64,000 nucleotides of DNA from Granulosicoccus antarcticus IMCC3135 (GTDB taxonomy: Bacteria; Pseudomonadota; Gammaproteobacteria; Granulosicoccales; Granulosicoccaceae). Position numbers and translations under genes: made by a program. The notes under the pieces are model-generated. The model saw nothing but the letters and a program-made list of their open reading frames with translations, searched no databases and was not told the DNA's origin. Below, piece by piece: positions 22,487-38,204 of the stretch (position 1 is its first letter; each line of letters begins with the position of its first letter). The DNA is taken from NCBI RefSeq assembly GCF_002215215.1, contig NZ_CP018632.1:3034501-3098500 (forward strand). The letters run 5' to 3'.

Positions 22487-23514
22487 CGACAGGTGTTGGT
22501 GGCGATCCGATACTAATCTGGGGCGCCGGTGCCATAGGTGGCATTTTGGGTGCCTATTTTGCCAGAGCCGGACAGGCCGTGCAGATGGTCGATATTGTCG
22601 AAGACCATGTCACGGCAATGAGCACGGATGGCTTGCTGATAGAAGGGCCTGTGGAAGAATTCAGACAGGTTTTACCGGCGGCCACCCCTGAGACTCTGAC
22701 TGGTAGCTATCGACGTGTGATCCTCGCTGTCAAGGCTCATCACACCGAACTGGCACTTGATATGTTGATGCCACACTTGGCCGAGGACGGTTATATCGTC
22801 TCTGCGCAGAATGGTATGAATGAGCGGCAAATCGCCTTGCGCGTGGGAGCGCATCGTACCGTGGGTTGTTTCGTGAATTTCAGTGCAGACTGGCTGGGGC
22901 CCGGACGCATACTCTATGGTAATCGCGCAGCAGTGGCGCTGGGAGAGCTGGACGGTAGCATGAGCTCCCGTTTGCAAGAGATGCATAGTCTGTTCAGTCT
23001 GGTGGAACCCAAGGCTGTCATGACAGACAATATCTGGGGGTACCTGTGGGGCAAGATGGGCTACGGATCATTGCTGTTTGCAACGGCGTTGACGCCTGAA
23101 TCCATGTCCGATGCCATGGATCCGGCAGTGCATCGGCCGGTTTATGCCATGCTGGGTGGGGAGGTCATGCGATTGGCTGCGGCTGAGGGTGTGCAGCCTA
23201 TTGGTTTCAACGGTTTCGATCCGCTGGCATTCAGCACCGTAAATACACAGCAGATTGATAAATCGATTGATACGATGGTGGCGCACAACCGCAAGACTGC
23301 CAAGACTCATTCGGGCATTTATCGTGATCTGGCCGTGCGCAAACGCAAGACCGAAGTGGATGCTCAAATTGGTATTCTTGTTGAGATTGGTCGCTTGCAC
23401 GGGATCGCAACGCCTGCGCTGGAATGCCTCTACGATATGATTCGCGATATTGAAAACGGCAAGCGGGAGCAATCCACCGAATTGCTGGATAGGATGGTGC
23501 CACTATGCAGCTGA
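22483..23514 (+). CDS. Ketopantoate reductase-like oxidoreductase (PanE/ApbA family)
   Basis: NADPH-dependent reductase fold. The Rossmann motif is ILIWGAGAIGGILGAYFARAG, then VKAHHTELAL and SAQNGMNE. The C-terminal helical domain contains KMGYGSLLFATAL and the substrate-region KRKTEVDAQIG. The family includes ketopantoate reductases and many paralogues acting on other 2-keto acids. Its place inside an amide-catabolism operon makes a dedicated catabolic role more likely than pantothenate synthesis. The stop overlaps the SDR gene by 10 bases. Confidence 0.85.
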   Translation: MTTGVGGDPILIWGAGAIGGILGAYFARAGQAVQMVDIVEDHVTAMSTDGLLIEGPVEEFRQVLPAATPETLTGSYRRVILAVKAHHTELALDMLMPHLAEDGYIVSAQNGMNERQIALRVGAHRTVGCFVNFSADWLGPGRILYGNRAAVALGELDGSMSSRLQEMHSLFSLVEPKAVMTDNIWGYLWGKMGYGSLLFATALTPESMSDAMDPAVHRPVYAMLGGEVMRLAAAEGVQPIGFNGFDPLAFSTVNTQQIDKSIDTMVAHNRKTAKTHSGIYRDLAVRKRKTEVDAQIGILVEIGRLHGIATPALECLYDMIRDIENGKREQSTELLDRMVPLCS

Positions 23515-24260
23515 ATCTTGATCAGCGAGTATTTGCAGTTACCGGTGCTGCGCAGGGAATCGGTGCGGCGATCGTGGAATCGCTGGTGGCAGAAGGGGCC
23601 ATTGTTGCCGCAATCGATATTGATGCTGATGGTCTGAGCCGGCTCGAGATGCTGCAGGGTGTGACCTGTCACAGCGGCGATCTGGGCTCGCCCGACAGTG
23701 CGCATGCCATCTGTAAAGAGATCATTGATCAACATGGCCATGTCGATGGACTGGTGACCGCTGCAGGCGGCGTGCGAGGTCAGATTGGCAGGCCATTGGA
23801 AGAGATCACGCCAGCGGATTGGCAGGCCATTTTTGCGGCCAACGTGGATGCTGCCATGTGGTGTGCACAAGGCTTTGCACCTGCCATGAAGCAACGTGGC
23901 TGGGGGCGAATCGTGACCATATCGTCGGGGGCTGGATTGAAACCCAGTCTGACGGGCATACAAGCCTATGCCTCGGCAAAGCACGCCCTGGTAGGTCTGA
24001 CCCGGCAGCTTGCACTGGAGCTGGGGCCGGCGGGTATTACTGTCAATTCGGTTGCACCCGGCTTTGTCCTGTCCAATCCTTCAACTGAGCGACAGTGGCA
24101 AGCTTTCGGGGCCGAGCGACAGGCGCAGATTGTCAACAGTATCCATACACGCAGGCTTGGCCGGGCGGAGGATATTGCTGATGCCGTGACGTTTCTATGC
24201 TCGGACAAGGCTGGCTGGATCACGGGGCAGATACTCCAGGTGGACGGAGGTCATGCATGA
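23505..24260 (+). CDS. Short-chain dehydrogenase/reductase (SDR)
   Basis: NAD(P)(H)-dependent oxidoreductase. It has the classical TGAAQGIG cofactor motif, the NNAG-equivalent TAAGG, the catalytic Ser in ISSGAGLKPS and YASAKHAL (YxxxK). The C-terminal GWITGQILQVDGG is standard. Length is 251 residues. It is the fourth gene of the plus-strand operon. Substrate unknown. Confidence 0.92.
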   Translation: MQLNLDQRVFAVTGAAQGIGAAIVESLVAEGAIVAAIDIDADGLSRLEMLQGVTCHSGDLGSPDSAHAICKEIIDQHGHVDGLVTAAGGVRGQIGRPLEEITPADWQAIFAANVDAAMWCAQGFAPAMKQRGWGRIVTISSGAGLKPSLTGIQAYASAKHALVGLTRQLALELGPAGITVNSVAPGFVLSNPSTERQWQAFGAERQAQIVNSIHTRRLGRAEDIADAVTFLCSDKAGWITGQILQVDGGHA

Positions 24261-24297
24261 GATTTTGGGAAGTGTTGCACAGTGAAGGAGATCGATA

Positions 24298-25203
24298 ATG
24301 ACTGAGCCTCATGAGTGGGATGAAGCGACATGGCGTCAGAAAGTCAATGCCGTCAGAGCAGGGCGCTCTTTGTTGCCCAAGACTTGGCCCGGTGGCGCCC
24401 GGTGTGCCGTGGCCTTGTCCTTTGACAGTGACCATGAGACCAATGAGCTGCGTGATGGTGCTCAGTCGGTAGCGCGACTTAGTTGGGGAGAATACGGATC
24501 AAGACGCGGCATTCCGCGTATCCGGCGTGCGCTTGATCGCCACGGTGCCAAGGCCAGTTTTTTTGTGCCAGCAGTATCAGCCTTGTTGCATCCCGAAGAG
24601 CAGCGTGCATTGGCCGATGAGGGTCATGAGATTGGCCTGCATGGCTGGATTCATGAGCTGAATACCAAGCTCGATGCAGTTACCGAACGAGAGCTGATGC
24701 TGCGCGCCTCTGACACCTTGGAGAAGGTGTGTGGCGTGCGCCCGCAGGGAATGCGAACGCCTTCCTGGGACTACAGCCCGAATACGTTGAACATTGCACG
24801 TGAAATGGGATTGTTGTATGACAGTTCGCTGTTCTCCGATGATGATCCGTATGAAATCATGGCTGAAGGCAAGCCGACAGGTATTGTCGAGCTACCGGTC
24901 GAGTGGATTCGTGATGATGCGGTGTATTTCATGATGAACCGTTTCGGTGCGCAGCGACCGTATACGCCGCCTGCTGATGTGCTGGATATTTTCCTGCGCG
25001 AATTCGAAGGTGCAAGAGAGGAGGGCGGACTTTTTCTGCTGACCATGCATCCGCATGTCATTGGCTACCGCAGTCGGATCTTTATACTAGAAAAATTGCT
25101 TGAACATATTGTAGCGACGGGTGATTGCTGGATAGCCACCCATGCCGAGATCGCCAGCTACTGTCTGGCTGAATCTGAACACTCAGGAACCCCATCATCA
25201 TGA
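24298..25203 (+). CDS. Polysaccharide deacetylase-family hydrolase (allantoinase PuuE-like)
   Basis: NodB-fold metal hydrolase. It shows ALSFDSDHETNE at the metal site, ASFFVPAVSALL, DEGHEIGLHGWIHE with the paired His residues and RTPSWDYSPNTL. Homologues near amidohydrolases often act on cyclic amides such as allantoin or N-acyl groups rather than on polysaccharide. No signal peptide is seen, so it is probably cytoplasmic. AAGGAG lies 8 bases before the ATG. ATGA overlap with the isoaspartyl peptidase gene. Confidence 0.87.
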   Translation: MTEPHEWDEATWRQKVNAVRAGRSLLPKTWPGGARCAVALSFDSDHETNELRDGAQSVARLSWGEYGSRRGIPRIRRALDRHGAKASFFVPAVSALLHPEEQRALADEGHEIGLHGWIHELNTKLDAVTERELMLRASDTLEKVCGVRPQGMRTPSWDYSPNTLNIAREMGLLYDSSLFSDDDPYEIMAEGKPTGIVELPVEWIRDDAVYFMMNRFGAQRPYTPPADVLDIFLREFEGAREEGGLFLLTMHPHVIGYRSRIFILEKLLEHIVATGDCWIATHAEIASYCLAESEHSGTPSS

Positions 25204-26147
25204 CTCGTTTTTCTCTGGCAGTACACGGCGGTGCCGGCACGATCAATAAAGCCACTCTGACCCCGGAGCTGGAGGTTCGTTACCACGAGGGTTTACGCAC
25301 CGCTCTGCGAGCCGGGCATGCCATCTTGAAAGACGGCGGTAGTGCGATGGATGCTGTTACCGCAGCGGTGTGTGCTCTGGAGGATGAGCCGCTATTCAAT
25401 GCGGGTCGAGGAGCCGTATTTACCAGTGAAGGTGTGCAGGAAATGGATGCTGCCGTCATGGATGGCAAAACACGCGAAGCGGGAGCTGTTGGTGGGATCT
25501 TCGGGCCTCGAAATCCGATTCTTGCCGCACGAGCCGTGATGGAGAGTACAGAGCATGTCATGTTGATCGGCCCCAATGCCCTGCAGGTTGCCAGAAACGC
25601 TGACTTACCTTTTGAAGAGGCGCCGTATTTTTTTACCCAGTCACGCTGGGATGCTCTGCAGTCGACATTGGCGATGCGTGCGACGGGGCAGGTGGACGAT
25701 GATCCTGCCCGACGTCACGGTACCGTGGGTGCCGTCGCTTGTGATGCGCAGGGTAATCTTGCGGCCGCAACCTCGACCGGTGGCATGACCGCCAAAGCGC
25801 CGGGGCGAATAGGAGACACACCTATTATCGGTGCAGGTACCTATGCTGACAACAAGACCTGTGCGGTGTCAGGAACCGGGCATGGCGAGGTGTTTATCCG
25901 CTTTACCGCTGCCGCAGAAATTGCCGCTCGCATGCGGCATGCGGGAGAGTCTCTGGAGACGGCTGCAACTCATGTGGTGATGGAAGACCTGGGCAAGAAC
26001 GACGGTTCAGGTGGGCTGATTGCGGTTGATGCTCAGGGTCATATCGTGATGCCCTTCAACTGCGAAGGTATGTATCGGGGCATGGTCAATGAGAACGCAG
26101 ATTTTGAGACCTTTATCTATTCAGAAGCGGGGCAGGTCGAAACGTGA
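25200..26147 (+). CDS. Isoaspartyl peptidase / L-asparaginase (Ntn hydrolase)
   Basis: Releases L-aspartate from beta-aspartyl dipeptides and hydrolyses asparagine. The proenzyme cleaves itself before the nucleophile Thr175 in RRHGTVGAVA. Other family signs are LAVHGGAGTI, FNAGRGAVFT, EMDAAVMDG and GTGHGEVFIR. Length of 315 residues is normal. It ends the plus-strand operon, and its 3' end overlaps the convergent adenylate-forming enzyme gene by 31 bases. It fits a pathway that degrades damaged or cyclised aspartyl peptides taken up by the adjacent importer. Confidence 0.93.
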   Translation: MTRFSLAVHGGAGTINKATLTPELEVRYHEGLRTALRAGHAILKDGGSAMDAVTAAVCALEDEPLFNAGRGAVFTSEGVQEMDAAVMDGKTREAGAVGGIFGPRNPILAARAVMESTEHVMLIGPNALQVARNADLPFEEAPYFFTQSRWDALQSTLAMRATGQVDDDPARRHGTVGAVACDAQGNLAAATSTGGMTAKAPGRIGDTPIIGAGTYADNKTCAVSGTGHGEVFIRFTAAAEIAARMRHAGESLETAATHVVMEDLGKNDGSGGLIAVDAQGHIVMPFNCEGMYRGMVNENADFETFIYSEAGQVET

Positions 26148-27571
26148 TGGTCGACCCTTGAGCGGTTGTTCACTTGATTCAACTTGCCACTGACTGCATT
26201 TCGTTGTGGCGGTCGAGGATCATGTTGAAGCTTTACGGGCAAGGTGCCCTGAGACTCAAAGTATTGCTTCAGCGGTGCACGAATTTTATCAAACGCTTCT
26301 CTACGGGACTGTATGTCATCGCCTTGTGTCCGGATTGATAGTTCTTGCGCTCCGATCTGGTTGATCTGGAATCCGAATTCATTTGCCATTTCCTCTATTA
26401 CGGTGTTCAAGGCAAGTGGCAAAATTGGAATATGGTCGGCCTCATTGGCAGGCAGCCATAAAGTGTCATCGTTGCGACCCTCAATGCTGAGGGTAGGTAG
26501 GGGATTTCCACAGTCACAGGCGTCGGTATGCAAGGTTATGCTGTCGCCAATATCATAACGAATGATGGGCTGTAGTCGACTGGCCAGGTTTGTCACCAGC
26601 GTGGTTGCCGATTTCTCACCTGCTGGTAGCACTTGCCTGTTCTCGTCCACCGGTTCCAATATGAACCAGTCAGTGTTGATGTGCAGCCTTCCATGATCGC
26701 AGCCAAAGGCCATATTCATCGCTTCGGAGGCGCCGTAGTCCTCGACGATGTTGCATCCGAACGCGGCCTCTATCTTTCGTTTCTGTTGTTCCCCGAGTTG
26801 TTCGCCGCCACTCCACAGGCTATTGAGGGATAGTTTCAGTCTGCCAGATTTCTGTTCATTGGCAAGCACTGCCAGCATGCTCGGGTAGCTGGACATAAAC
26901 CCTGGCTGCCAATCATTAAGCCTTTCAACCAGGGTGGCAACAGGTTGAAGAATCGAAAAGGTTCGAGTTCGACTGGAAAGCCATGGGTTCAGTCGTGCCG
27001 CCCATTTCCAGTAAACGGTTCCTGCAAAATGGCCTTCCAGGGCGGCAATCATGGCCATTCGATCTGAATTCAAAACCAGATGCCATGGGTCGGTAGAGGC
27101 AGAAGCGTGTCCACTCTGCTGATACCTGACGGATATCAACGATTGATAGATAGACATTGCGTTCTTGTCCTGCACGTAAATACCCGGTTCGCCACAGGTG
27201 CCACTGCTGGTCCAGACAAGGTAGTTATCAAGATAGCGTTCGCCAATGGTGTCCGTGGACGACAGAAAATGGTTTACGGACTTCTTGTCTATTCGTCGAT
27301 CGGTTGCCCATTCATCGAAATGATCCATGAGTGTGGAGCGAGCGACAGGAGGATAGGCTTCCAGAGGTGAGTCTGTGGGTATGGATGAATAGTATTTTGC
27401 GTAGAAGGGAGAGTGCTGCCGAGAGTGCGCTAGCAACTCAGAAGCACGTTTAAAACCTTTTTTTCTGGCTGAGGCTGCGCTCACAACCGGTTCGGATTGC
27501 AACCGGTATACAGCCTGCCAGCAACGTATACCGTCTGCCCAATCCGTCATGTAGTCGAGTGGTGTTTGCAT
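26117..27571 (-). CDS. CapK/PaaK-like adenylate-forming enzyme
   Basis: Member of the phenylacetate-CoA ligase-like branch of AMP-forming enzymes, which activate a carboxylate as acyl-adenylate. Motifs are LVWTSSGTCGEPG (ATP P-loop equivalent), YGASEAMNMAFGC and RYDIGDSITL. The C-terminal lid subdomain is present. ATG 27571 has AAGGA about 10 bases upstream; in-frame ATGs exist at 27595 and 27604. No ACP or product genes sit next to it. It overlaps the isoaspartyl peptidase gene tail to tail. Substrate unknown. Confidence 0.82.
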   Translation of the reverse strand: MQTPLDYMTDWADGIRCWQAVYRLQSEPVVSAASARKKGFKRASELLAHSRQHSPFYAKYYSSIPTDSPLEAYPPVARSTLMDHFDEWATDRRIDKKSVNHFLSSTDTIGERYLDNYLVWTSSGTCGEPGIYVQDKNAMSIYQSLISVRYQQSGHASASTDPWHLVLNSDRMAMIAALEGHFAGTVYWKWAARLNPWLSSRTRTFSILQPVATLVERLNDWQPGFMSSYPSMLAVLANEQKSGRLKLSLNSLWSGGEQLGEQQKRKIEAAFGCNIVEDYGASEAMNMAFGCDHGRLHINTDWFILEPVDENRQVLPAGEKSATTLVTNLASRLQPIIRYDIGDSITLHTDACDCGNPLPTLSIEGRNDDTLWLPANEADHIPILPLALNTVIEEMANEFGFQINQIGAQELSIRTQGDDIQSRREAFDKIRAPLKQYFESQGTLPVKLQHDPRPPQRNAVSGKLNQVNNRSRVDHHVSTCPASE

Positions 27572-27604
27572 CCTGTCGGATTCCTTCGTCTTCATGCGTG
27601 ACAC

Positions 27605-27933
27605 CGGAATCGCCTGAATAACAGGGATTGCGACAACCCCAAGTGAGCGAATACCCGGCTGGATTAGAACCTTAAGCTCTTCAGCTTGCCATGATATTGA
27701 TGTCGATCAAGTGGCATTACCGATAAACAGGCAGTGCAGGGTTACATGTGGCGTTTCAAAATATCCATGACAGGCAGTGGAAGTATTCGATATTGAAGCG
27801 ACTTGAACGCTGGTCAGCGGCTCTACAGAGAGCTGACGGTGATATAGCCGCCCGGATGTGAACAAGTCCGGGCGATTTCTGACGTCAGGGGATCAGCAAG
27901 CACTAATGAGCTGTTGATCAAAAGAGCGCTGAA
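27605..27933. other. Intergenic region with one strong hairpin
   Basis: About 330 bases with no gene I can support. Its main content is the hairpin at 27849-27874. The rest presumably holds the promoter of the minus-strand adenylate-forming enzyme. Confidence 0.4.
27849..27874 (-). terminator. Possible terminator of the molbindin gene
   Basis: CGCCCGGA and TCCGGGCG form a perfect eight-base stem with a ten-base loop, 60 bases past the molbindin stop. The T-run is weak on both strands, so termination efficiency is uncertain. Confidence 0.45.
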
Positions 27934-28143
27934 TCAGTCGACACCGATCATGACGTTGCTGGCCTTTGTCAGTGCGTACACTTCCTTGCCTACTTCCAGC
28001 TCAAGGCCTTCACAGGATTTTTTGGTGATGATGGATGTCAATAACACGCCAGGTGCGATTTCCACTTCCACTTCGGCGTTGACAGCACCGATTTCAATCG
28101 ATGTGACTTTGCCTTTCATGACGTTGCGTGCACTGAGTTTCAC
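27934..28143 (-). CDS. Molbindin: TOBE-domain molybdopterin/molybdate-binding protein
   Basis: A 69-residue single TOBE (Mop) domain: KLSARNVMKGKVTSIEIGAV, then NAEVEVEIAPGVLLTSIIT and VYALTKASNVMIGVD. Such proteins assemble into hexamers that bind and buffer molybdate or tungstate in the cytoplasm. The GTG start has GGAG about 11 bases upstream. No molybdate transporter or cofactor genes are adjacent, so it appears to be a stand-alone storage protein. Confidence 0.92.
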   Translation of the reverse strand: MKLSARNVMKGKVTSIEIGAVNAEVEVEIAPGVLLTSIITKKSCEGLELEVGKEVYALTKASNVMIGVD

Positions 28144-28253
28144 TATGTATATCTCCAGGATGTGAATTGCCGGATAGTCAATCTACCCGGTCAACAGCGT
28201 CAGTATAATGCAGCGATAAAGCTATAGACGAAAGTTGTCGGGATCCGCTCACT

Positions 28254-28652
28254 TCAGAAATTCACCGGATGTTGCTGGCAGTCTTCAGCGACTTCTTTCA
28301 TCAGAGCGCTGAGTGTGGAGCATGCGTCAGTATTCAAAATATGCCAAAATATTGACACGTTCAGGCTAGCCAAAGGAAGCTCAAAAACACAGATATCTTT
28401 CCAGAACGAGTTAGAGCTCGACAAGAATGCTTGCCTGAAATGGTCTGCAGGGATAAATCGGCAGGAGTTATTAGTCGTGGAATTAGCGGAGTAACACGGT
28501 GCTACGAAGCTTCTTTGCCATTGTAGGGAAAGAGCTGATCCCCTGGTTCCAAAACAGATAAATTCGAATAGCCAGAAGTGTTGGGCAAGCGCGCTCGCAA
28601 GTATTCCCGACTCGGTTACACTAGCTCTCTGGAGTTCAGGAAGAACAATCAA
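28254..28652 (-). pseudogene. Possible decayed LysR-type regulator C-terminus
   Basis: A 132-codon frame whose end, ELPLASLNVSIFWHILNTD followed by STLSALMKEVAED, resembles the last strand and helix of NahR/NodD-like LysR effector domains. The preceding stretch matches only loosely and no helix-turn-helix is present on either side. I read it as a remnant with lost 5' portion. It may also be a chance frame, since the codon usage is not distinctive. Confidence 0.35.
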
Positions 28653-29185
28653 CCCGTTGCTATGACAGCATGACCCTGGTGTCTATCTGCCAAATCGGGG
28701 AAGTTTCACGTTGTAAGTGCTGAAGATTCTCTTTTTCGAGATGTGTGTCTCACTTGGGAGTGTCAGATCAAGTAGGTGAGCCAGGATATATAAGCCAGGT
28801 CACACTCCACTGTTAGCACCTATCAAGGCTGAAATGGCATAGAGGCTGTTTGTCAACCTGACTTCGGACGCACGCCATCCGAGTTTATCTCTTTTTCAGG
28901 GCCATAGTCAGGGAGTCAGAACCAATGCCAAAGTCTTGCAAAAGCAGTCTGCCCGGGGCTGAAGTCGTGCGCGGCGAAGTTCTGGAGAAGTGCCTCCGGC
29001 GTAGCTTGATAGCTCGGCTCGCACAAGAACCAATCCGACTGTATAGCTATGTGTTATTGAGATACTCAGAATACAGCTGTATGTACGCTTTCTATAAAAG
29101 CGACCTTAGGGTCGTTTTTTTATATGTCAAATAATATAAATAAAATATCAGGTTGTTACTGTATTTATTATGAGTTGAAGGAATT
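28653..29185. other. Boundary region before the A+T-rich biosynthetic island
   Basis: No supported gene in about 530 bases. A 69-codon frame at 28925-29134 runs through the terminator at 29096-29121 and is rejected. Base composition changes here: GC-rich to the left, A+T-rich to the right. The last 50 bases hold the promoter/leader of darA-like gene. Confidence 0.45.
29096..29121 (+). terminator. Rho-independent terminator at the island edge
   Basis: AAAAG CGACC TTAG GGTCG TTTTTTT: a five-pair GC stem with tetraloop and a seven-T tail. It reads on the plus strand and insulates the biosynthetic operon from upstream transcription. Confidence 0.75.
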
Positions 29186-30100
29186 ATGAAAAATGTATTA
29201 GTTATTTATTACTCGCAAAGCGGTCAGTTGTCAAAGATGGCTGAATCAGTAACGGCCTCGCTTAATGAGAGTGAACACGTAAAGGTTGATTATTGCCCTA
29301 TAAAGCCTGTAACTGCCTATCCTTACCCATGGCAATTTTATCCATTTTTTGATGCCTTTCCTGAATCCATATATATGAATGGCTGTCCTGTGGAAGCAAT
29401 CGAGCCGCAAGAAAAAGAATATGATCTGATTATCCTGGCTTATAGCGTATGGTTTTTATCACCGGCTATTCCAATAACGGGGTTCTTGAAAACAGAACAA
29501 GCCAAACAGTTACTTAAGGGCAAGCCAGTAATTACCTTGATTGCCTGTCGTGATATGTGGGTGATGGCCCAGGAGAAAATGAAGTTATTGTTGGTAGATC
29601 TGCAAGCTACTCTCATTGATAACGTCGTTTTAACTGATCAAGGTGGATCGCTTTACGCGTTTGTGACCACTCCGCGTTGGATGTTTACGGGCAAGAAAAG
29701 TCCGTTTTTATTTTTCCCAGCTGCTGGTGTGAGTGACCATGCGTTTCAGGACAGTCGTCGCTTTGGAGATCGATTACTTGTTGCGTTGGAAAATGACGAA
29801 GAAAAAACAGGTAAACCCTTGCTTACCAACATGGGGGCAGTATCGGTAGATGGCAAACTAATTGGTAGTGAGAAGGTAGGAACTCGCTCATTCATGATAT
29901 GGGGGAATCTTATTAAAAAATCAGGTAAGCCGGGATCGGTTGCAAGAAAAGTGGTGATAACCATTTATGTGGTATTTCTTTTCGTACTGATATTGACCGT
30001 TGTACCTTTGAATATACTAATTCGTCGTCTGATTTATCCGTTTACCAAAAAATCGATAGAAGAAAGTGTCCGCGAATATGAGAAGCCGTCTGGACGATAA
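29186..30100 (+). CDS. darA: DarA-like dialkylresorcinol condensing enzyme (flavodoxin-fold)
   Basis: Resembles DarA of dialkylresorcinol and flexirubin pathways, which joins two beta-keto acyl precursors into an aromatic ring. Visible features are the flavodoxin-like start NVLVIYYSQSGQLSKM, the family PYPWQFYPFFDAFPESIY, and DLIILAYSVWFLSPAIPI. A membrane segment near residues 256-283 (VVITIYVVFLFVLILTVVPL) precedes a basic tail, so the enzyme is probably membrane-anchored. GAAGGA lies 5 bases before the ATG. It starts a nine-gene operon and its stop overlaps darB-like by one base. Assignment is by recognised sequence pattern; the product is unknown. Confidence 0.85.
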   Translation: MKNVLVIYYSQSGQLSKMAESVTASLNESEHVKVDYCPIKPVTAYPYPWQFYPFFDAFPESIYMNGCPVEAIEPQEKEYDLIILAYSVWFLSPAIPITGFLKTEQAKQLLKGKPVITLIACRDMWVMAQEKMKLLLVDLQATLIDNVVLTDQGGSLYAFVTTPRWMFTGKKSPFLFFPAAGVSDHAFQDSRRFGDRLLVALENDEEKTGKPLLTNMGAVSVDGKLIGSEKVGTRSFMIWGNLIKKSGKPGSVARKVVITIYVVFLFVLILTVVPLNILIRRLIYPFTKKSIEESVREYEKPSGR

Positions 30101-31251
30101 TGATGACTAGAAACGTATATATTAACGACATTCAAGCTTTCATGCCTAACGAGGCGGTTAGCAATGATGATATGGAAGCGCTCTTGGGTCAGGTAGGTGC
30201 GCGACCTTCACGTGCTCGTAAGATGATATTGCGTTCCAACAAAATTACCTCCCGATACTATGCGATAAACAAAGAAACAGGATTGGCGACACATACGAAT
30301 GCGCAGTTAACCGCTGAGTCTGTCCGTCAGCTAAATACTGAATCATTTAGTATTTCTGATATTGAACTACTTGCCTGTGGAACCTCAGTACCAGATCAAA
30401 TGTTACCTAATCATGCCTTGATGGTGCATGGCGAGCTTGGAATTCCTAGCTGCGAGGTTGTTGCTACTTCGGGAATCTGCTTGTCGGGAACCATGTCGCT
30501 TAAATATGGCTATATGTCGATTTTGAGTGGATTAAGTAATAACGCGGTGGCAACGGGGTCTGAAGTGGCATCTGCAGTGATGCGTGCCAATAATTTCAAA
30601 GAGGAAGTTGAAATTAGAAGTGAAGCATTAGAGTCTAAGCCGGAAATTGCATTTGACAAGGATTTTTTGCGTTGGATGCTTAGTGATGGAGCCGGTGCTG
30701 CATTGATGAGTGCAAAGCCTAATGAAGAAGGACTGACAATAAAAATTGACTGGATAGTACAAAAGTCCTATGCCAATGAACATGATACTTGTATGTACGC
30801 TGGTGCGGAAAAGCAAGTAGACGGTAGTTTGAAGGGCTGGATGGCATATGACAGCAAGGAATGGTTAAACCAATCTATCTTTAGTATAAAACAGGATGTT
30901 AAGCAGCTTAATGAGAATATTGTTGACTACACAGTGACCAGGCCGCTTAAGGAGTTGGTTGATAAAGGCCAGGTAGATGCGGATAGTATTGACTATTTTC
31001 TGCCACATTATTCTTCTGGTTATTTCCGAGACAAGCTCTACCAAGGGATGCAAGAAGCAGGGTGCGATATCCCACAAGACAAATGGTTCACCAACCTGGC
31101 AACAAAAGGCAATACGGGGGCTGCTTCAATTTATATTATGTTGGCAGAGTTGTTTCATTCAGGAAAGTTGAAAAAGGCCGACAAGTTGCTTTGCTATGTT
31201 CCTGAGAGTGGCCGGTTTTCTACAGCATTCATGCAATTAACAATTGTGTGA
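30100..31251 (+). CDS. darB: DarB-like 3-oxoacyl-ACP synthase III (FabH fold)
   Basis: FabH-type condensing enzyme. The catalytic triad is complete: Cys127 in TSGICLSG, His303 in FLPHYSSGYF and Asn338 in GNTGAAS. Length is 383 residues, longer than housekeeping FabH and in line with DarB. In known resorcinol pathways DarB acts with DarA to condense and cyclise acyl chains. TAATG overlap with darA-like gene shows coupling. The first residues read as two Met codons in a row; either may be used. Confidence 0.88.
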   Translation: MMTRNVYINDIQAFMPNEAVSNDDMEALLGQVGARPSRARKMILRSNKITSRYYAINKETGLATHTNAQLTAESVRQLNTESFSISDIELLACGTSVPDQMLPNHALMVHGELGIPSCEVVATSGICLSGTMSLKYGYMSILSGLSNNAVATGSEVASAVMRANNFKEEVEIRSEALESKPEIAFDKDFLRWMLSDGAGAALMSAKPNEEGLTIKIDWIVQKSYANEHDTCMYAGAEKQVDGSLKGWMAYDSKEWLNQSIFSIKQDVKQLNENIVDYTVTRPLKELVDKGQVDADSIDYFLPHYSSGYFRDKLYQGMQEAGCDIPQDKWFTNLATKGNTGAASIYIMLAELFHSGKLKKADKLLCYVPESGRFSTAFMQLTIV

Positions 31252-31264
31252 CCAGGGGTTGATG

Positions 31265-31672
31265 ATGGAAATTAATGATGTTCCGCAAGATGCCATTTCT
31301 ACCTATGCTGAGAACAAAAAGGCTGTCTACGCAACGGACAAAAACGGTCAGTATGCAGTTGTCAGCTCTTCGGGCTGGGATGTAGAAGAGGAGGTAACAA
31401 AGCAGGCGTTGACAGAGCTACAACGGCAGGCTGATTTGGCCTATCAAGCCGTTGTTTCAGGTTCCAAGTCGCCACTTTATTATCATATGTATGCGCAACG
31501 TATGGATGTGACGGTCTTGGCTCAATCCATGGGCATGTTCAAATGGCGGGTCAAACGCCACTTGCAACCGGATACTTTCAAATCTCTCTCTGCCGGTATG
31601 TTTGCCCGTTATAGCGATGCATTGGGTCTTGATGTTGAGCAGCTGAAAAAATTACCTGAGTTGAAATATTAA
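31265..31672 (+). CDS. Small protein with C-terminal HTH-like segment, DarB-associated
   Basis: A 135-residue protein I cannot place in a named family. ATG 31265 is chosen because AGGGG lies 7 bases upstream; upstream in-frame starts overlap darB-like. The N-terminal part (residues 1-50) is polar; the C-terminal part YHMYAQRMDVTVLAQSMGMF then WRVKRHLQPDTFKSLS and FARYSDALGLDVEQLKKL looks like a Cro/CI-type helix-turn-helix, with LAQSMGM as turn. It could regulate the operon or act as an adaptor for the enzymes. It lies between darB-like and BtrH-like genes in the same frame order with no gap. Confidence 0.65.
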   Translation: MEINDVPQDAISTYAENKKAVYATDKNGQYAVVSSSGWDVEEEVTKQALTELQRQADLAYQAVVSGSKSPLYYHMYAQRMDVTVLAQSMGMFKWRVKRHLQPDTFKSLSAGMFARYSDALGLDVEQLKKLPELKY

Positions 31673-31676
31673 TAGA

Positions 31677-32675
31677 ATGGAAACAATGCAATTCAAACAT
31701 CAGCATGCAGCACATTGCGAAAGTGGTGTTATGTCATCTATGTGCACTAATCATGGTCTAGTGCTTTCCGAAGCGATGGTGTTTGGTTTGTCTAACGCAC
31801 TCTCTTTTGTTTATTTGCCCTTCGTGAAAATTGGTGGCATGCCATTAGTTGCCTATCGTTCTATGCCGAAGTCGATTATTAAAGGTTTGCAGAAAAATAT
31901 TGGCATGAAAATGAAAGTAGAAAAATTTTCAAACCCGGAGCAAGGCGGCAAGCGGCTTGATGAGTTACTTGCACAGGGTAAAATAGTCGGAGCGCAAACC
32001 TCGGTCTTCTGGTTGCCTTATTTTCCTGAAGAGATGCGTTTTCATTTTAATGCTCATAACCTCATGATCGTTGACAAGACTAACGATACTTATACGATCA
32101 GTGATCCGGTGTTTGAGCACCTGGTTGAATCAGATAGTAAGTCTTTGTTGAAAGCACGGTTTGTGAAAGGGGTGATGGCACCCAAGGGTGCGTTGTATTA
32201 CCCCACATTTGTGCCCGAGAGCATCGATTATCAAAAAGTACTGCCAAAGTGTATCAAGAAAACTGCCAAAACCATGCTTAAAACACCAGTGCCTATTGCT
32301 GGTTTGAAAGGGATGCACACACTGGCCAGACATATACGTCGGTTGGAAAAAAAGGATGAACATTCCAACAAGTTATTCCTGGGCAATATAATTCGCATGC
32401 AGGAAGAGATCGGTACTGGTGGTGCGGGATTTCGGTTTATCTACGCCTCCTTTTTACAGGAATCAGGCGAATTGATTAATAATCAGGATTTGATCAAAGC
32501 TTCACAAATGATGACAGCAACGGGAGATGCATGGCGTGAGTTTGCCCTGCTGATTGCCAAGTCAATTCGGTCGAAAAATAAAAAAGCGATAGATTACCAG
32601 GCTATTGCTGAAAAATTGGAGTCTGTTGCTGATCTGGAAAAGAAGGTATATACATTTTTATTACAGGCGTTCTGA
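31677..32675 (+). CDS. BtrH N-terminal-domain protein (acyltransferase-like)
   Basis: The N-terminus has the BtrH-type cysteine-protease/acyltransferase fold: HCESGVMSSMCTNHGLVLSE with Cys14, then MVFGLSNALSFVYLPF, His127 in FNAHNLMIVD and Asp143 in ISDPVF as a likely catalytic set. The C-terminal helical half (about 200-332) matches the DUF4872-like region that often follows. BtrH transfers an acyl group from an acyl carrier protein to an aminoglycoside, so this protein may move the finished chain from the operon's ACP to an acceptor. That role is inferred. TGATG overlap with the ATPase gene. Confidence 0.78.
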   Translation: METMQFKHQHAAHCESGVMSSMCTNHGLVLSEAMVFGLSNALSFVYLPFVKIGGMPLVAYRSMPKSIIKGLQKNIGMKMKVEKFSNPEQGGKRLDELLAQGKIVGAQTSVFWLPYFPEEMRFHFNAHNLMIVDKTNDTYTISDPVFEHLVESDSKSLLKARFVKGVMAPKGALYYPTFVPESIDYQKVLPKCIKKTAKTMLKTPVPIAGLKGMHTLARHIRRLEKKDEHSNKLFLGNIIRMQEEIGTGGAGFRFIYASFLQESGELINNQDLIKASQMMTATGDAWREFALLIAKSIRSKNKKAIDYQAIAEKLESVADLEKKVYTFLLQAF

Positions 32676-33589
32676 TGATCAGAATAGACAAGCTCTGTAA
32701 AAAGTACGGTAAGAAGAAAGCTCTGGATGATCTTTGCCTGGAGATTAAGGGAAATACGATCTTTGGTCTTCTTGGGCCAAATGGGGCAGGAAAAACGACA
32801 CTTATCTCTGTTTTGAATGGCCTGACGACATTTGATAGTGGAGAGGTGTCTGTTTTTGATAAAGCGCTATCTAAAAATATCAGAGAAATACGCAGGCGTT
32901 GCTCTCTGATCCCTCAAAGTCTGGCTTTTTACGACAAATTATCCGTTAAAGAGAATCTTGACTATTTTTCTGCTATTCAGAAAATATCACCTGCAGATGT
33001 AAAAAAGAATATCAGTTATGCGGTTGAAGTCAATCGCCTGGGTTCAATGTTGACGCAGAAAGCGTCGACTTTGTCAGGTGGTCAAAAGCGTCGTTTGAAT
33101 ATTGCTATTGGATTATTGAACAATCCAGACATTCTTTTTTTGGATGAACCTACCGTTGGTATTGACCTGGAATCACGTAACGAAATACTGGAAATGATTC
33201 GCTCGTTCAAGCAGCAGAATAAATGCGTGATATATACCTCTCATTATATGCCTGAAATTGAAAAGATATGTGATCAGGTTGCGATTATTAATGACGGACA
33301 TATTGTCAAGCAGGGAAGCATTGAAACAATGCTTGAGGATGAATCCAACAATCAGGTGATGATTGAAATATACGAAACGCCCCTAGCTGTTCTTCAGGAG
33401 TGCAGTGAAAAATTCTCTCTATTGACGGTGCTCGATAGCCAGAGGTTGCAACTGGCTTCTAAATCCACGAATGATGTTTCACAGTCAATATCTGTATTGG
33501 AAGGCAATGGGGTCAAGATCAAGCGAATAAATTACGTGACCAGCACACTTGAATCTGTATTTGTCAATTTAACATCGAGAGGGATATAG
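32675..33589 (+). CDS. ABC exporter ATP-binding protein (ABC-2 type)
   Basis: ATPase of a drug/lipid-type exporter. Walker A is GPNGAGKTT at residues 34-42. The signature TLSGGQKRRLNIAIGLL and Walker B ILFLDEPTVGID follow, with the H-loop in YTSHYMPEIE. The C-terminal extension (about 215-304) resembles CcmA/NatA exporters. The start overlaps the BtrH-like stop by one base and the permease follows immediately, so product export is the probable job. Confidence 0.92.
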   Translation: MIRIDKLCKKYGKKKALDDLCLEIKGNTIFGLLGPNGAGKTTLISVLNGLTTFDSGEVSVFDKALSKNIREIRRRCSLIPQSLAFYDKLSVKENLDYFSAIQKISPADVKKNISYAVEVNRLGSMLTQKASTLSGGQKRRLNIAIGLLNNPDILFLDEPTVGIDLESRNEILEMIRSFKQQNKCVIYTSHYMPEIEKICDQVAIINDGHIVKQGSIETMLEDESNNQVMIEIYETPLAVLQECSEKFSLLTVLDSQRLQLASKSTNDVSQSISVLEGNGVKIKRINYVTSTLESVFVNLTSRGI

Positions 33590-33590
33590 C

Positions 33591-34763
33591 ATGTTTAAAG
33601 CGATGTTAATCAAGGAGTATTTGCTGGTTTTTCGAGACAAGCACGCATTGGCCGCTTTGTTTGTCATGCCGGCTGTTTTTATCCTGATCATGTCTCTGGC
33701 GCTGAAGGATACTTTTAATGAGGAAAGGTCGGTGCTTTCAATGGCCATCGCTGACCAGGCTGCTAATGACAGTAGTAGGCTGTTTGTTGATTCCATTCAA
33801 GGCAACAAACAACTCAATAGCAAATTGCTTGTAAGTGATGATACTCATGATGTAGAGCAGCAAGGCGTGCAGTTTGTGATTGTGCTTCCTGATGGGTACG
33901 GGGTTGAGCAAGACAAGAAATTACAGATACAGGTCGCCTCTGATGTTTCGCAGGCGGTTTTGCTTTTATTTAAAGCACAGGTCATGCAAATCATCATGCA
34001 GCAAAAAATGGACTCACTTCACGCAAGGCAGGTGGAACGCGCGAGCCAGGCAGGTTCGCCGATTCCAGAGGCTAACTCATTGAGTGAGAAGGATCTTATG
34101 AACATTCAATACGTCAGGTTGGATGAAGATGTAAAGCCGACATCAACTCAGCAGAGCGTGCCTTCATGGATTGTATTTGGTCTGTTTTTTGTCGTGATTC
34201 CCATGTCGACCATATTCATCAGTGAACGTAAGCAAAATACATTGATGCGTTTGACTGTCATGAATGTCACGATTCCCGCACTGTTTGCTGGAAAAATAAT
34301 ACCTTACATGATTATAAATCAGCTGCAGGTATGGCTGATGATTGCCGTCGGCATGTATGTGGTGCCCATGTTCGGCGCTGATGCTTTAACGTTGGGAGGT
34401 TCGTTGCCCGGGTTGATTCTTCTGTCGCTCGCACTGAGCCTGGCAGCTATTGGTCTGTCTATCTTGATTGCAACTGTTGTTGATAGTGTTGAACAAGCGA
34501 CTACAATTGGCGGAATTATCAATATATTGCTGGGTGCTATTGGTGGGGTGATGGTACCTAAATATATAATGCCTGAGTTTATGCAGAATTTTGCAAATAT
34601 ATCCCCTATGTCGTGGGGCTTGGACGGTTATCTGGACCTGTTTTTACGTAATGGAAGTTTGGCTGATGTTGCGAATGAGATATTGGCATTAACCTCATTT
34701 GGTCTGCTTTTGCTTTTGTTAGCGGCTATCATTTTTAATATTAAAATAAGGACGGTTTCATGA
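33591..34763 (+). CDS. ABC-2 type permease
   Basis: Exporter membrane subunit of 390 residues. One N-terminal helix (LAALFVMPAVFILIMSLAL) is followed by a periplasmic domain of about 150 residues and five C-terminal helices beginning WIVFGLFFVVIPMSTIF. This is the ABC-2/YhgE-like layout. The 3' end overlaps the acyl carrier protein gene by 4 bases (ATGA). Confidence 0.9.
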   Translation: MFKAMLIKEYLLVFRDKHALAALFVMPAVFILIMSLALKDTFNEERSVLSMAIADQAANDSSRLFVDSIQGNKQLNSKLLVSDDTHDVEQQGVQFVIVLPDGYGVEQDKKLQIQVASDVSQAVLLLFKAQVMQIIMQQKMDSLHARQVERASQAGSPIPEANSLSEKDLMNIQYVRLDEDVKPTSTQQSVPSWIVFGLFFVVIPMSTIFISERKQNTLMRLTVMNVTIPALFAGKIIPYMIINQLQVWLMIAVGMYVVPMFGADALTLGGSLPGLILLSLALSLAAIGLSILIATVVDSVEQATTIGGIINILLGAIGGVMVPKYIMPEFMQNFANISPMSWGLDGYLDLFLRNGSLADVANEILALTSFGLLLLLLAAIIFNIKIRTVS

Positions 34764-35029
34764 TTGGATCACAAGATGATGCGCTTAAATTACGGTTAAA
34801 GACAATGATCATTGAAGAGTGTGAAAAAGAAGAATTCACACCTGATGATATTAGCGACGAAGTGTTACTGTTTTCTCCCGAAAGTGGTTTGGAGCTTGAT
34901 TCTGTTGATGCCTTGCAATTGTCCATGAGTTTGCAGCAAGAGTTCAATGTTCGTTTGACTGATCCCAAGGCATTTCGGCGGGCTGTTACCAGTATCAATG
35001 GTCTCGCTGATTATTTGCAAGCTGAGTAA
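34760..35029 (+). CDS. Acyl carrier protein
   Basis: An 89-residue acyl carrier protein with the phosphopantetheine site LELDSVDALQL (Ser48). Helices I and III are recognisable. It is a dedicated carrier, encoded between the exporter permease and the ketosynthase. Its Ser must be modified by a phosphopantetheinyl transferase; none is in the operon, so a chromosomal one is presumably used. Confidence 0.92.
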   Translation: MIGSQDDALKLRLKTMIIEECEKEEFTPDDISDEVLLFSPESGLELDSVDALQLSMSLQQEFNVRLTDPKAFRRAVTSINGLADYLQAE

Positions 35030-35034
35030 GACTA

Positions 35035-36177
35035 ATGATCACTATTTTGGGCGGTGATATTATTTGTGCTCTGGGTGATAAGCAGCAGCGTCTGCAACAT
35101 CTTGAAAACGGTACCTATGAAACCGTTGAAAAACAGATGGATGTTTTTGGTGAGATGCGCAGTTATCCCTACTATCAGCTGGCTGGTAGGCCAGTATTGC
35201 CGGAATATTTCGATCCGATACCCATCATCATTCCACTTATACAAACTCTAATTGACAAGCACGAGATCGATGCTGATGCATTGGGTCGCTGTGGTTTGTT
35301 TTTGGGTTGTTCTGCAAATGATCTGTCTATTTCTCACTCAATCTGGTTGAATGCAAAAGATTCTACGTCAGTTGAATTTGATGAGAAACGAGTAGGGAAT
35401 GGAGTCTATGCAACCCGTTTGATAGAGCATTTCGGACTGAATGAATTGTCTCTTACCTATAACACGGCGTGTACTTCCAGTGCCAATGCTGCGCTTGATG
35501 CTGCAACGATGCTAGAAGCCAATGTTATTGATTATGCCTTGGTCATTGGCTTGGAGACGTTTGCCAGTCTTTCATTTGAAGGTTTTGCTTCGATGCAATT
35601 ACTGGCTGATGATCAAGTGTCTCCATTTTCAAAGGATCGTCAAGGCATGGTATTAGGTGAGTCATTGGCTGCTCTATTCATGAGCCGTGATGATGTATGT
35701 GAAAGTAGTTGGAAATATAGAGGTGGTGTTAATCGTAGCGAAATCGCTAGTGTTACCGGCGCCAAGTTGGATGGCAGTGGTATCAAGGAGGTGATTGATC
35801 TGACGCTAGCCAGTTGTCAGCTTCAGGCGGGACAAATAACGTCGATAAAGACGCATGGTACCGGTAGTCCGATGGGGGATCTAGCAGAAATTAGAGGGAT
35901 GCAAAGCGTATTCGAACAGCAACCAGATTTCTTTTCTTTTAAACCTTTTATAGGTCATACCCTTGGTAGTTGTGGGGTAAGTGAGATGTTACTTTTGATA
36001 GAGTGTGTTGATCAAGGGTTTATTCCAGGGACGCCCAATTTCGAAAATATTGATCCAGATCTGCGATGGGCGCCGATGGAAAAAAGCAAAAGTTGCGAAG
36101 CAGGAAATTTTTTACTTAACTATTTTGGATTTGGCGGTAACAATGTTTCCATGGTTGTCGAAAAGGTAGCCTTGTGA
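35035..36177 (+). CDS. Beta-ketoacyl-ACP synthase (FabF/KAS II type), active
   Basis: Decarboxylating condensing enzyme for chain extension. The Cys-His-His triad is intact: Cys146 in YNTACTSSANAALDA, His274 in KTHGTGSPMGD and His308 in KPFIGHTLGS. The C-terminal NYFGFGGNNVS motif is present. Length of 380 residues is slightly below FabF. The stop overlaps the ketosynthase-like partner by 4 bases, which suggests a heterodimer. Confidence 0.92.
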   Translation: MITILGGDIICALGDKQQRLQHLENGTYETVEKQMDVFGEMRSYPYYQLAGRPVLPEYFDPIPIIIPLIQTLIDKHEIDADALGRCGLFLGCSANDLSISHSIWLNAKDSTSVEFDEKRVGNGVYATRLIEHFGLNELSLTYNTACTSSANAALDAATMLEANVIDYALVIGLETFASLSFEGFASMQLLADDQVSPFSKDRQGMVLGESLAALFMSRDDVCESSWKYRGGVNRSEIASVTGAKLDGSGIKEVIDLTLASCQLQAGQITSIKTHGTGSPMGDLAEIRGMQSVFEQQPDFFSFKPFIGHTLGSCGVSEMLLLIECVDQGFIPGTPNFENIDPDLRWAPMEKSKSCEAGNFLLNYFGFGGNNVSMVVEKVAL

Positions 36178-37028
36178 TCTATATCCAGCAAACTGCAATA
36201 GTTAATCACAACGAACCAGAACAAGTTGATGTAAAAGCTCTTTGCAGAGAAGTTGCTGCAAAACATGTTCGTCGTACAGATCGCTTTATTCAACTCGGTA
36301 TTTTGGGTGTTGAGAAGATCCAGAGAAAGCAGGACGTCAAGGAGAATACGGCTTTATATATAACGTCTGGTCAGGGGAATATTCCTTTATTCAAGTACTT
36401 GTGTGATCGTCAATTGGTGGATAAAACCCCACCCAAGCCTGTTGATTTCATTAACTCATTGAGTAGTTCGGCGGGTTTTTATATTTCCCAATACTTGGGG
36501 TTGAACAGTAAAAATACGAATATATTCAATCATGGATTTGCTGTGGAAATGGCACTTACATTGGCCGATTGCGAATTGAAGCTGGGCAAGGAAGAGCAGA
36601 TATTGGTAGGCGGCATTGATCAGTTGTTTGAGCCTGAAGATATTGCCAGGCAGTATCTTGGATTAAAGCCTGATGTCAATTTGGGGGAAGGCAGTAACTG
36701 GATGCTGCTCAGTAACGAGAGTAAGGGTTCGCTCGCTTCTATCAATGTTGTCATTCAAGCGATGACTGTTAGCCAACTAGAGGGATATATCGATAATATT
36801 GGTAATGATGCTCAAGTTGCGTTTTCACTGCGTTGTCCCGAGGCAATTATTGAAAAATTGCTGGCGGGAAATACATTGGTCCGATTTTGTTATGAGTCCC
36901 AGGTCAATTTTTATGAAACAGTTGTGCTTTATGCGCTTAATCATTTCGTGCAAACTGAAAAGGGCAAGTTGATATTTATTGATTATTTTGAAGGCACTTC
37001 AAGATTGATTGAGCTGGATGTTTATTGA
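36174..37028 (+). CDS. Ketosynthase-like chain-length-factor protein without active-site Cys
   Basis: A 284-residue protein whose sequence follows the ketosynthase N-terminal fold: FINSLSSSAGFYISQYLGL, then NIFNHGFAVEMALTLAD where an active enzyme has the TACTSS motif, and ILVGGIDQL. The nucleophilic Cys is replaced (His120-Gly121 region) and the two C-terminal His motifs are absent. Such proteins pair with an active ketosynthase as chain-length factors in type II polyketide and aryl polyene systems. The immediate coupling to the intact ketosynthase fits that role. A degenerate, non-functional copy is the alternative. Confidence 0.75.
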   Translation: MIYIQQTAIVNHNEPEQVDVKALCREVAAKHVRRTDRFIQLGILGVEKIQRKQDVKENTALYITSGQGNIPLFKYLCDRQLVDKTPPKPVDFINSLSSSAGFYISQYLGLNSKNTNIFNHGFAVEMALTLADCELKLGKEEQILVGGIDQLFEPEDIARQYLGLKPDVNLGEGSNWMLLSNESKGSLASINVVIQAMTVSQLEGYIDNIGNDAQVAFSLRCPEAIIEKLLAGNTLVRFCYESQVNFYETVVLYALNHFVQTEKGKLIFIDYFEGTSRLIELDVY

Positions 37029-37343: not shown

Positions 37344-38204
37344 CTACTGGCGAGTGAGCAGGGCTGTGAAGTTGTTGGCGTCACCTTCGGCACCGAATCC
37401 GTTCAACACCAGTTGGCTGCTAGTACGGTTGAAGAACAGCACACCCTCGCGGTCGAAGTCATTCCAGTTGTAATCGATCGCCAGATACAGGGAGGAGTCC
37501 GCAGCGGCTTCGACAGAACCTGTCAGAGGGATGCCATCAACACCATCGGGAATGCTGCCACTGGCGTAATCAGTGAATCCGCTGACTGTACCATCTGCTG
37601 AGATGGTCATTGAAAGCACCAGATTGTCGTCTTCACTGAAGGAGGTGAGTGCGACCCAGGTACCGGCAATGTCTGCCACGCTGATGGCACTGACGTCATC
37701 GCTACCGGCGAAGGTCAGCGAAAAGCTGCCGGCATCGCCCGTGTTGTCCAGTTGCTGGCCATCATTGGTGACAGCGAGGTTGTAGGTAACGGAATCCGCT
37801 CCAGCGTCGAACGTCGTGATGGCCGAAGGCACATCACCCACCAGCGTGAAGGAATCGCCGTGTGCCGGATTATCACTGTCACGATGGATAAATCGGCTTG
37901 CCGCATCACCCACACTGCCAAAGGCAGCTTCGTAGTTACCGCTACCAGCGCTGTAGCTGTAGATATCATTGTCTGGCTCGATCACGACTACCGCTTCGCC
38001 GAAGCCGTTGTTGCCGAACCACACACCAGAGGTACCGCCGTCCACGTTGTCACCACCGGTTCCATTTCCGGTATCAGTTCCAGTGTCAGTTCCGGTATCA
38101 GTTCCGGTATCAGTTCCGGTCGTGCCACCATCGGAGTCATCGCTGCTTGAACAGGCTGTCAGACTGGCGATCAGCAGCAGTGGCAGAAGGGTTCTTACTT
38201 TCAT
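37344..38204 (-). CDS. Hypothetical lipoprotein with Thr-Asp repeat linker
   Basis: Signal peptide with lipobox SLTAC (Cys18), so the protein is lipid-anchored, probably in the outer membrane. Residues about 20-55 form a low-complexity linker of TGTD repeats, followed by a domain beginning SGVWFGNNGFGEAVVVIEPD with alternating beta-strand character through the C-terminus (ADIAGTWVALTSFSED, DYNWNDFDREGVLFFN). I recognise no named family. GGAAG lies 6 bases before the ATG. It may be a calycin/beta-sandwich-type surface protein. Confidence 0.75.
   Translation of the reverse strand: MKVRTLLPLLLIASLTACSSSDDSDGGTTGTDTGTDTGTDTGTDTGNGTGGDNVDGGTSGVWFGNNGFGEAVVVIEPDNDIYSYSAGSGNYEAAFGSVGDAASRFIHRDSDNPAHGDSFTLVGDVPSAITTFDAGADSVTYNLAVTNDGQQLDNTGDAGSFSLTFAGSDDVSAISVADIAGTWVALTSFSEDDNLVLSMTISADGTVSGFTDYASGSIPDGVDGIPLTGSVEAAADSSLYLAIDYNWNDFDREGVLFFNRTSSQLVLNGFGAEGDANNFTALLTRQ
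38068..38120. repeat. 12-bp tandem repeat inside the lipoprotein gene
   Basis: The unit GGTATCAGTTCC repeats four to five times with small changes and encodes the TGTD linker. Repeat number could vary by slippage in steps of four residues without loss of frame. Confidence 0.75.

Follow-up and report, generated by a model that had tools for sequence, protein, structure and literature searches.

The closest described counterpart of the operon analyzed here is the dar gene set of Azoarcus sp. BH72, printed in 2014 by Schoner et al. (PMC3949708), whose introduction states that the dialkylresorcinol (DAR) gene cluster is known from 89 strains. Table 1 of that paper lists the Azoarcus genes azo0293-azo0283 as darA, darB, darD (conserved hypothetical), darE (BtrH-like peptidase), darF (ATPase of an ATP-binding cassette (ABC) transporter), darG and darH (Prevent-host-death (Phd) and PilT domains), darI (permease), darC (acyl carrier protein, ACP), darJ (ketosynthase, KS) and darK (hypothetical). 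Mutants in two unlinked polyene loci of Azoarcus, which hold a XanB2-type enzyme, were without pigment, and from mass spectrometry data arcuflavin was proposed to be an ester of a xanthomonadin-like polyene acid with a resorcinol. In the flexirubins of Flavobacterium johnsoniae and Chitinophaga pinensis a resorcinol made by DarA and DarB is esterified to an aryl polyene, and heterologous expression of darB and darA from C. pinensis yielded a dialkylresorcinol (PMC3992019). Here we describe a nine-gene operon at positions 29186-37028 (forward strand) of a stretch of 64,000 nucleotides from Granulosicoccus antarcticus IMCC3135 (contig NZ_CP018632.1, positions 3,034,501 to 3,098,500), the whole of which we call the window. 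Very probably it is a complete copy of the gene set described in 2014, providing the resorcinol part of yellow aryl-polyene pigments, and new only as regards its host. The papers used for comparison are PMC3949708, PMC3992019, PMC9606717, PMC12945683, PMC10318531 and PMC6772006.

All nine open reading frames (ORFs) are present, open and co-directional, with gaps between neighbours of -1, +13, +4, -1, +1, -4, +5 and -4 bases when gene 3 is started at 31265. This start is the probable one, as in the homologues, and hence the TTG at 31244 would not be used. The compact nine-gene operon that the original prediction, made from the letters of the window, had proposed is thus borne out, with gaps from -4 to +13 bases. 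Counts of promoter- and terminator-like sites were not above those in shuffled sequences. Gene names follow PMC3949708; the NCBIfam names DarG and DarH correspond to DarD and DarE of that paper.

29186..30100, + strand: darA, 304 amino acids (aa), candidate flavodoxin-like aromatase / condensing protein
30100..31251, + strand: darB, 383 aa, ketoacyl synthase III-like head-to-head condensing enzyme of the StlD/DarB family
31265..31672, + strand: darD (NCBIfam: DarG), small conserved protein, NF053536
31677..32675, + strand: darE (NCBIfam: DarH), BtrH-like papain-fold acyltransferase, candidate for forming the polyene-resorcinol ester; C14, H127, D143
32675..33589, + strand: darF, ABC transporter ATPase
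33591..34763, + strand: darI, ABC-2 permease, ABC2_membrane_3 at 124.2 bits
34760..35029, + strand: darC, acyl carrier protein with a conserved DSxD site
35035..36177, + strand: darJ, ketosynthase; C146, H274, H308
36174..37028, + strand: darK, KS-like / chain-length-factor-like protein lacking the active-site cysteine

The Azoarcus genes provide the same nine functions in the same order as the window operon (A-B-D-E-F-I-C-J-K). In Azoarcus, however, a Phd/PilT pair lies between ATPase and permease, a pair that the window operon lacks, and the host lineages differ. In both genomes the polyene genes are not adjacent to the dar genes. The original prediction had taken the pathway for a candidate undescribed one, unless the nine-gene set were already tied to a product; in substance the Azoarcus genes are such a set, printed with arcuflavin as their proposed product.

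The individual proteins support the DarAB-type operon with BtrH-like acyltransferase, ABC exporter, ACP, KS and inactive KS-like partner that had been predicted, by families, residues, hhalign and structural model. DarB scored 609.9 bits against the StlD/DarB family NF005293 (NCBIfam cut-off 450), and DarA is weakly flavodoxin-like (Flavodoxin_4, 17.6 bits, under the Pfam cut-off of 24). DarE matched NF053550 (DarH_acyl, ‘BtrH-related acyltransferase DarH’) at 486.1 bits (cut-off 300) and the Pfam family BtrH_N at 158.6 bits (cut-off 29.7), together with DUF4872, and DarD matched NF053536 (DarG_fam) at 172.8 bits (cut-off 70), so that NCBIfam gives genes 3 and 4 dialkylresorcinol-type names. 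The earlier description of DarD as helix-turn-helix-like found no confirmation: no family of that kind matched in Pfam or NCBIfam, and when solved structures were searched by profile there were just two matches, both weak (E 0.018 and 0.69). DarF matched ABC_tran over the Pfam cut-off (102.7 bits), its top NCBIfam model, DrrA (235.7 bits), staying under its cut-off, and DarI was over the Pfam cut-off for ABC2_membrane_3. DarC matched PP-binding at 26.5 bits (cut-off 20.8), with D47, S48 and D50 each conserved in at least 93% of 40 sequences. DarJ was over the Pfam cut-offs for Ketoacyl-synt_C (67.8 bits) and ketoacyl-synt (62 bits), and its C146 and H308 are kept in all 59 aligned sequences. 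Although DarK reached no family cut-off in Pfam or NCBIfam, it is KS-like as judged by profile alignment and predicted structure: hhalign against DarJ gave E 6e-5 (probability 65) with a glycine opposite the active-site cysteine, and the model (mean predicted local distance difference test score, pLDDT, 89.2) had its best structural match in chain B of the ishigamide KS/chain-length factor (6kxf_B).

A variation was seen in DarJ, whose first catalytic histidine is replaced by glutamine in 22 of the 59 aligned sequences, mostly from betaproteobacteria or unclassified Proteobacteria by locus title (L040, L043, L046-L052, L055, L057, L058, L060, L065, L067, L069, L072, L076, L078, L081, L084 and L089). 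Going by this substitution, the KS chemistry may differ in that lineage.

The gene set turns up far more often than chance would allow. When named genomes were scanned with an 11-sequence DarE alignment, at least 565 coding stretches were returned, the best 80 of which were made into loci (one of them, L087, gave no DarE ORF in the ORF set used), and genes were counted in the 56 of these 80 loci with enough flank. Homologues of DarD and DarE were present in all 56, of DarB in 54, of DarA in 53, of DarF, DarI and DarC in 51 each, of DarJ in 48 and of DarK in 25. The expectation that the neighbours are conserved together was thereby confirmed, A, B, D, E, F, I and C each occurring in 51-56 of the 56 loci. 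The forward order A-B-D-E-F-I-C-J, with or without K, was found in 21 loci, and A-B-D-E followed by K-J-C-I-F on the opposite strand in 18. The other 17 showed neither string, some of them only because overlapping ORFs alter the order of start positions. With a DarK profile, a match (E 0.0091 or better) was obtained at an ORF ending past or lying just after DarJ in 21 further loci, a count that leaves out L062 and L082 (match at the KS-like ORF itself) and L063 (match away from DarE). Among the carriers placed in the tree are Pseudomonadota, Thermodesulfobacteriota and Campylobacterota. The operon is real, intact and well conserved, and its relatives are common.

In a phylum sample of 398 genomes, with PF13723 over cut-off as the marker of a polyene cluster, DarH_acyl passed its cut-off in 13 genomes, one of them that of the window, and the StlD/DarB family passed in the identical set of 13. 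The marker was found in 89 of the 398 genomes, among them all 13 DarH carriers (hypergeometric chance 1.7e-9 by genome). By genus, all 11 carrier genera had a PF13723 match (E 0.001), as compared with 59 of 213 genera in total (3.5e-7); both probabilities are optimistic, since relatedness inflates the co-occurrence. Most marker-bearing genomes, 76 of the 89, have no DarH over cut-off. DarH matches below cut-off occurred in three more genomes (G132, G048 and G246), none of them among the PF13723 matches, and seven genomes had weaker DarB-like matches (302-398 bits) and no DarH over cut-off, three of these seven with PF13723. In the named collection, 46 of the 49 DarE-carrier genomes drawn from the 80 loci had the marker over cut-off, and in 39 the score was at least 71 bits. 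Using the polyene proteins of the window genome as queries, we found at least two kinds of polyene-like gene, not counting the two full-length KSs, near 8 of 79 loci, in flanks of 10 kb at most and with divergent genes liable to be missed. Close linkage of polyene and dar genes is thus a matter of a minority only. Among the 13 carriers of the phylum sample, five (G066, G124, G325, G335 and G417) have the marker on the same contig within about 30 kb.

The sole PF13723 match of the window genome, a KS at 136.6 bits, lies within an aryl polyene cluster at G000:C1:7.736-7.752 Mb. The cluster also holds an adenosine monophosphate (AMP)-ligase fused to an ApeI-like domain, a Lip_A-type acyltransferase, a thioesterase, a LolA-like protein (LolA2_flexi, 39.2 bits, under cut-off), two KSs and an ApeP-like dehydratase. 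As read from the sequence, a second acyltransferase, two ACPs with DSID sites, a FabG-like reductase, a phosphopantetheinyl transferase-like ORF and a large exporter-like ORF with no Pfam match belong to it, too. If the single 7.78 Mb contig is circular, about 3.1 Mb separate the cluster from the dar operon, and the two are unlinked. The original prediction had remarked on missing reductase, dehydratase and thioesterase genes; they are indeed not in the operon, but the functions are present in the polyene cluster, which lies outside the window and was therefore invisible at that time. No ammonia-lyase gene was found in the cluster, the three PF00221 genes of the genome lying at 3.98, 4.82 and 6.85 Mb. 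The cluster further contains a protein like halogenases dependent on flavin adenine dinucleotide (L003:10293-11525; CmlS model 146.3 bits, far under the cut-off of 900), and given this gene the pigment might be halogenated or oxidised.

Several observations weigh against the reading of the operon as the resorcinol half of an aryl-polyene pigment pathway, the inflation by relatedness mentioned above being one of them. The Azoarcus match is one of gene order and named function. DarA reaches no curated cut-off in Pfam or NCBIfam, and DarB, at 530.7 bits, is 19.3 bits short of the cut-off (550) of the stricter model NF053539 (resorcinol_DarB). PF13723 is a proxy, the full polyene cluster having been inspected in the window genome only, and 7 of the 46 marker matches in the named collection reach only 45-59 bits, most of them in frames of more than 700 aa. 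Three of the 49 carriers are without the marker (G453, a 1.3 Mb assembly, G479 and G486), and G486 is without DarB over cut-off as well. The two samples overlap, in that G464 and G484 share coordinates with G124 and G108 and are probably the same genomes. Among the control genomes, Bacteroides ihuae has PF13723 and neither DarH nor BtrH_N; one control passes the DarB cut-off and DarH is absent from all of them, so DarB of this class occurs without DarE. Finally, the polyene cluster of the window genome yielded no aryl starter enzyme, though no XanB2 search was made.

The G486 locus (L082) is peculiar in that it carries DarD-DarE but no DarA or DarB within its flanks, in an assembly with no DarB over cut-off and no PF13723 match. 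DarE of G486 may work with another acceptor, or the assembly may be incomplete.

Weighing these points, we hold with high confidence that the dar operon in the window is complete and belongs to the aryl polyene-dialkylresorcinol pigment type (arcuflavin- or flexirubin-like), a confidence that applies to the identity of the operon and not to single steps. As shown for relatives, DarB would condense two fatty-acid-derived thioesters head to head and DarA would aromatise the ring to a 2,5-dialkylresorcinol. This ring-making core is settled for the relatives by the expression of C. pinensis darB and darA mentioned above. Ring making there thus did not need the ACP and KS of the operon, which counts against the earlier idea that the ACP/KS pair supplies the chain for cyclisation by DarAB. 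Judging from its genes, the remote polyene cluster would provide an aryl-polyene acid on a carrier protein. DarE might then take the acyl group off the carrier protein and form an ester with a phenolic hydroxyl of the resorcinol, a step that we regard as moderately likely. DarC, DarJ and DarK might shape or hand over an acyl-ACP substrate, and transport of the pigment, or of its lipid portion, in the direction of the outer membrane might fall to DarF/DarI.

DarE as joining enzyme deserves closer consideration. Its C14, H127 and D143 are invariant in 28 aligned sequences, and the model (pLDDT 88.7) predicts a papain-like fold with a helical domain and a conserved cysteine, histidine and acidic residue. 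The fold matches AziU3 (Z 25.4), CtaG (Z 24.2) and CcbD (Z 21.2) over 292-306 residues; the next match, PeiR (Z 14.5), covers residues 2-179 only, which is the papain-like half. Sequence identity of DarE to BtrH-like fold relatives is 9-16%. When the DarE profile was searched against solved structures by sequence, only designed coiled coils and apolipophorins came up, which were rejected as relatives. The C11, H128 and D144 of CtaG (known from the PDB titles C11A, H128A and D144N) are numbered and spaced much like the three residues of DarE, a likeness seen without residue-by-residue superposition. For CtaG, the predicted reaction is the transfer of hydroxybenzoate off a carrier protein and onto a peptide that is itself carrier-bound. 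CcbD is described as a Cys-His-Glu enzyme whose acyl donor is bound to a carrier protein, fatty acyl groups being among those accepted, and BtrH as an ACP:aminoglycoside acyltransferase. From the fold, the invariant residues and the carrier-protein acyl transfer described for fold relatives, we are inclined to see in DarE an aryl-polyenoyl-ACP:dialkylresorcinol O-acyltransferase on the BtrH/CtaG fold that would join the two pigment halves. The original prediction had the BtrH-like protein attach an acyl chain, which the predicted fold supports, but the chain would most likely be the polyene. NCBIfam already labels the DarE family as acyltransferase. No enzyme is named for the joining step in the excerpts of PMC3949708, and among the matches listed no title or abstract beginning credits this step to a BtrH-like protein, which is no proof of its absence from print.

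It might also be possible, and we would call it the lesser prospect, that another enzyme makes the ester bond, such as a FlxW-like ligase or an acyltransferase of the polyene cluster, and that DarE loads or edits DarC. FlxW has been proposed as a ‘ligase-like’ joining enzyme in Chitinophaga (PMC3992019). The polyene marker without BtrH_N in Bacteroides ihuae, the control with DarB among controls lacking DarH, and G486 with DarD-DarE and neither DarB over cut-off nor marker would fit such a division of labour. However, the enzymes closest to DarE in fold are described as transferring acyl groups from carrier proteins, as is BtrH, and DarE and DarB coincide exactly in 13 of the 398 genomes. Less well still fares the model of the original prediction, improbable in our view, by which the product made and exported would be a free dialkylresorcinol, or else a polyene-independent resorcinol lipid, with DarE adding a fatty acyl chain made by DarC, DarJ and DarK. 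In its favour, an ACP, a KS, a KS-like protein and a transporter are all encoded within the operon, the polyene cluster is unlinked to it in this genome, CcbD takes fatty acyl groups, and 2-hexyl-5-propyl resorcinol (PMC6403133) is an example of a free resorcinol product. Yet a stand-alone lipid would not need the polyene marker that accompanies DarE in 13 of 13 and 46 of 49 carriers, whereas the marker is present in only three of the seven weaker DarB-like genomes. In Azoarcus, too, the resorcinol went undetected in extracts, and the pigment yields a fragment identical to it (PMC3949708).

As to the origin of the operon, its genes have a guanine-plus-cytosine (GC) content of 0.398-0.458. Eight neighbouring genes are richer: the one at 42861-43775 has 0.475, and the seven others lie at 0.511-0.585. 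The GC step at about 29000 and 37000 is the only marker of insertion edges. In a tree of DarB and DarE the window falls into one group with Photobacterium indicum and Vibrio sp. Y2-5 (SH-aLRT, the Shimodaira-Hasegawa-like approximate likelihood ratio test, 99), although the tree is a quick one in which the letter composition of some rows, among them that of the window, deviates. The low GC together with this grouping points to horizontal transfer, and the operon was probably acquired in this way; it would have entered the lineage in a form related to that of the Vibrionaceae. DarE occurs in 1 of 26 other genomes of the genus (G004), several of which are incomplete. There (L113), A-B-D-E lie on one strand and I, J and K on the other, and the sequences fall into another part of the DarB and DarE tree. 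Given this different arrangement and the distance of DarB and DarE, there may have been two or more gains of dar genes in the genus, independent acquisition in the window genome and in G004 being the simplest reading. The low GC, the foreign grouping and the single carrier among congeners might suggest a silent passenger after transfer, but with nine open frames, the catalytic residues of DarJ and DarE retained and a polyene cluster in the genome this is very improbable.

Between a ligase gene and darA lie 1.6 kb (27605-29185) with short ORFs only (the longest listed has 132 aa), perhaps the edge of a transferred piece, with a hairpin and T run at 29096-29119, near the darA-side end. The ligase gene (26117-27604, - strand), AMP-ligase-like and F390-synthetase-related, was rejected as a partner of the operon: homologues (65-71% identity) occur in 4 of the 26 other genomes of the genus, none of the four with a DarE match, and G004, which has DarE, has no match to the ligase. 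Against the FlxY model its match is weak (40.7 bits, cut-off 520). An empty-site comparison with three ligase-bearing relatives (20 kb each) showed no neighbouring window gene in matching order beside the ligase. Further away, 19024-26147 holds genes for family-5 solute-binding, GntR-like, creatininase-like, ketopantoate-reductase-like, short-chain dehydrogenase/reductase, deacetylase-like and asparaginase-like proteins, an ordinary-looking uptake and amide-breakdown set. On the other side of the operon, the product of 37344-38204 (- strand), for which no Pfam or NCBIfam family was over cut-off, is a putative lipoprotein that carries a TDTG repeat close to its N-terminus.

Taken as an operon, the window locus extends an already published pigment pathway by one host. 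Its main interest lies in the joining step, which in the literature cited here is a proposal only and for which co-occurrence and fold now point to DarE, one testable enzyme within a compact, intact gene set. If DarE does join the halves, it would link polyene clusters of several phyla with the resorcinol operon, alongside which it would travel by horizontal transfer. The nearest relatives with the full set are Photobacterium indicum (L025) and Vibrio sp. Y2-5 (L026), whose dar operons have all nine genes in the same order as the window, with DarE identities of 78% and 74%; their locus GC contents (0.41 and 0.43) are close to that of the window operon, whereas the surroundings of the latter are higher. 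With flexirubin biosynthesis the proposed product shares a DarAB resorcinol esterified to an aryl polyene. However, two marks of the flexirubin subtype are missing, DarD scoring 132.2 bits against flexirubin_DarG (NCBIfam cut-off 170) and the genome's own polyene cluster having no ammonia-lyase. A further difference would concern the acceptor: BtrH and CcbD, two described members of the fold, act on amines, and DarE would turn the same fold to the esterification of a phenol.

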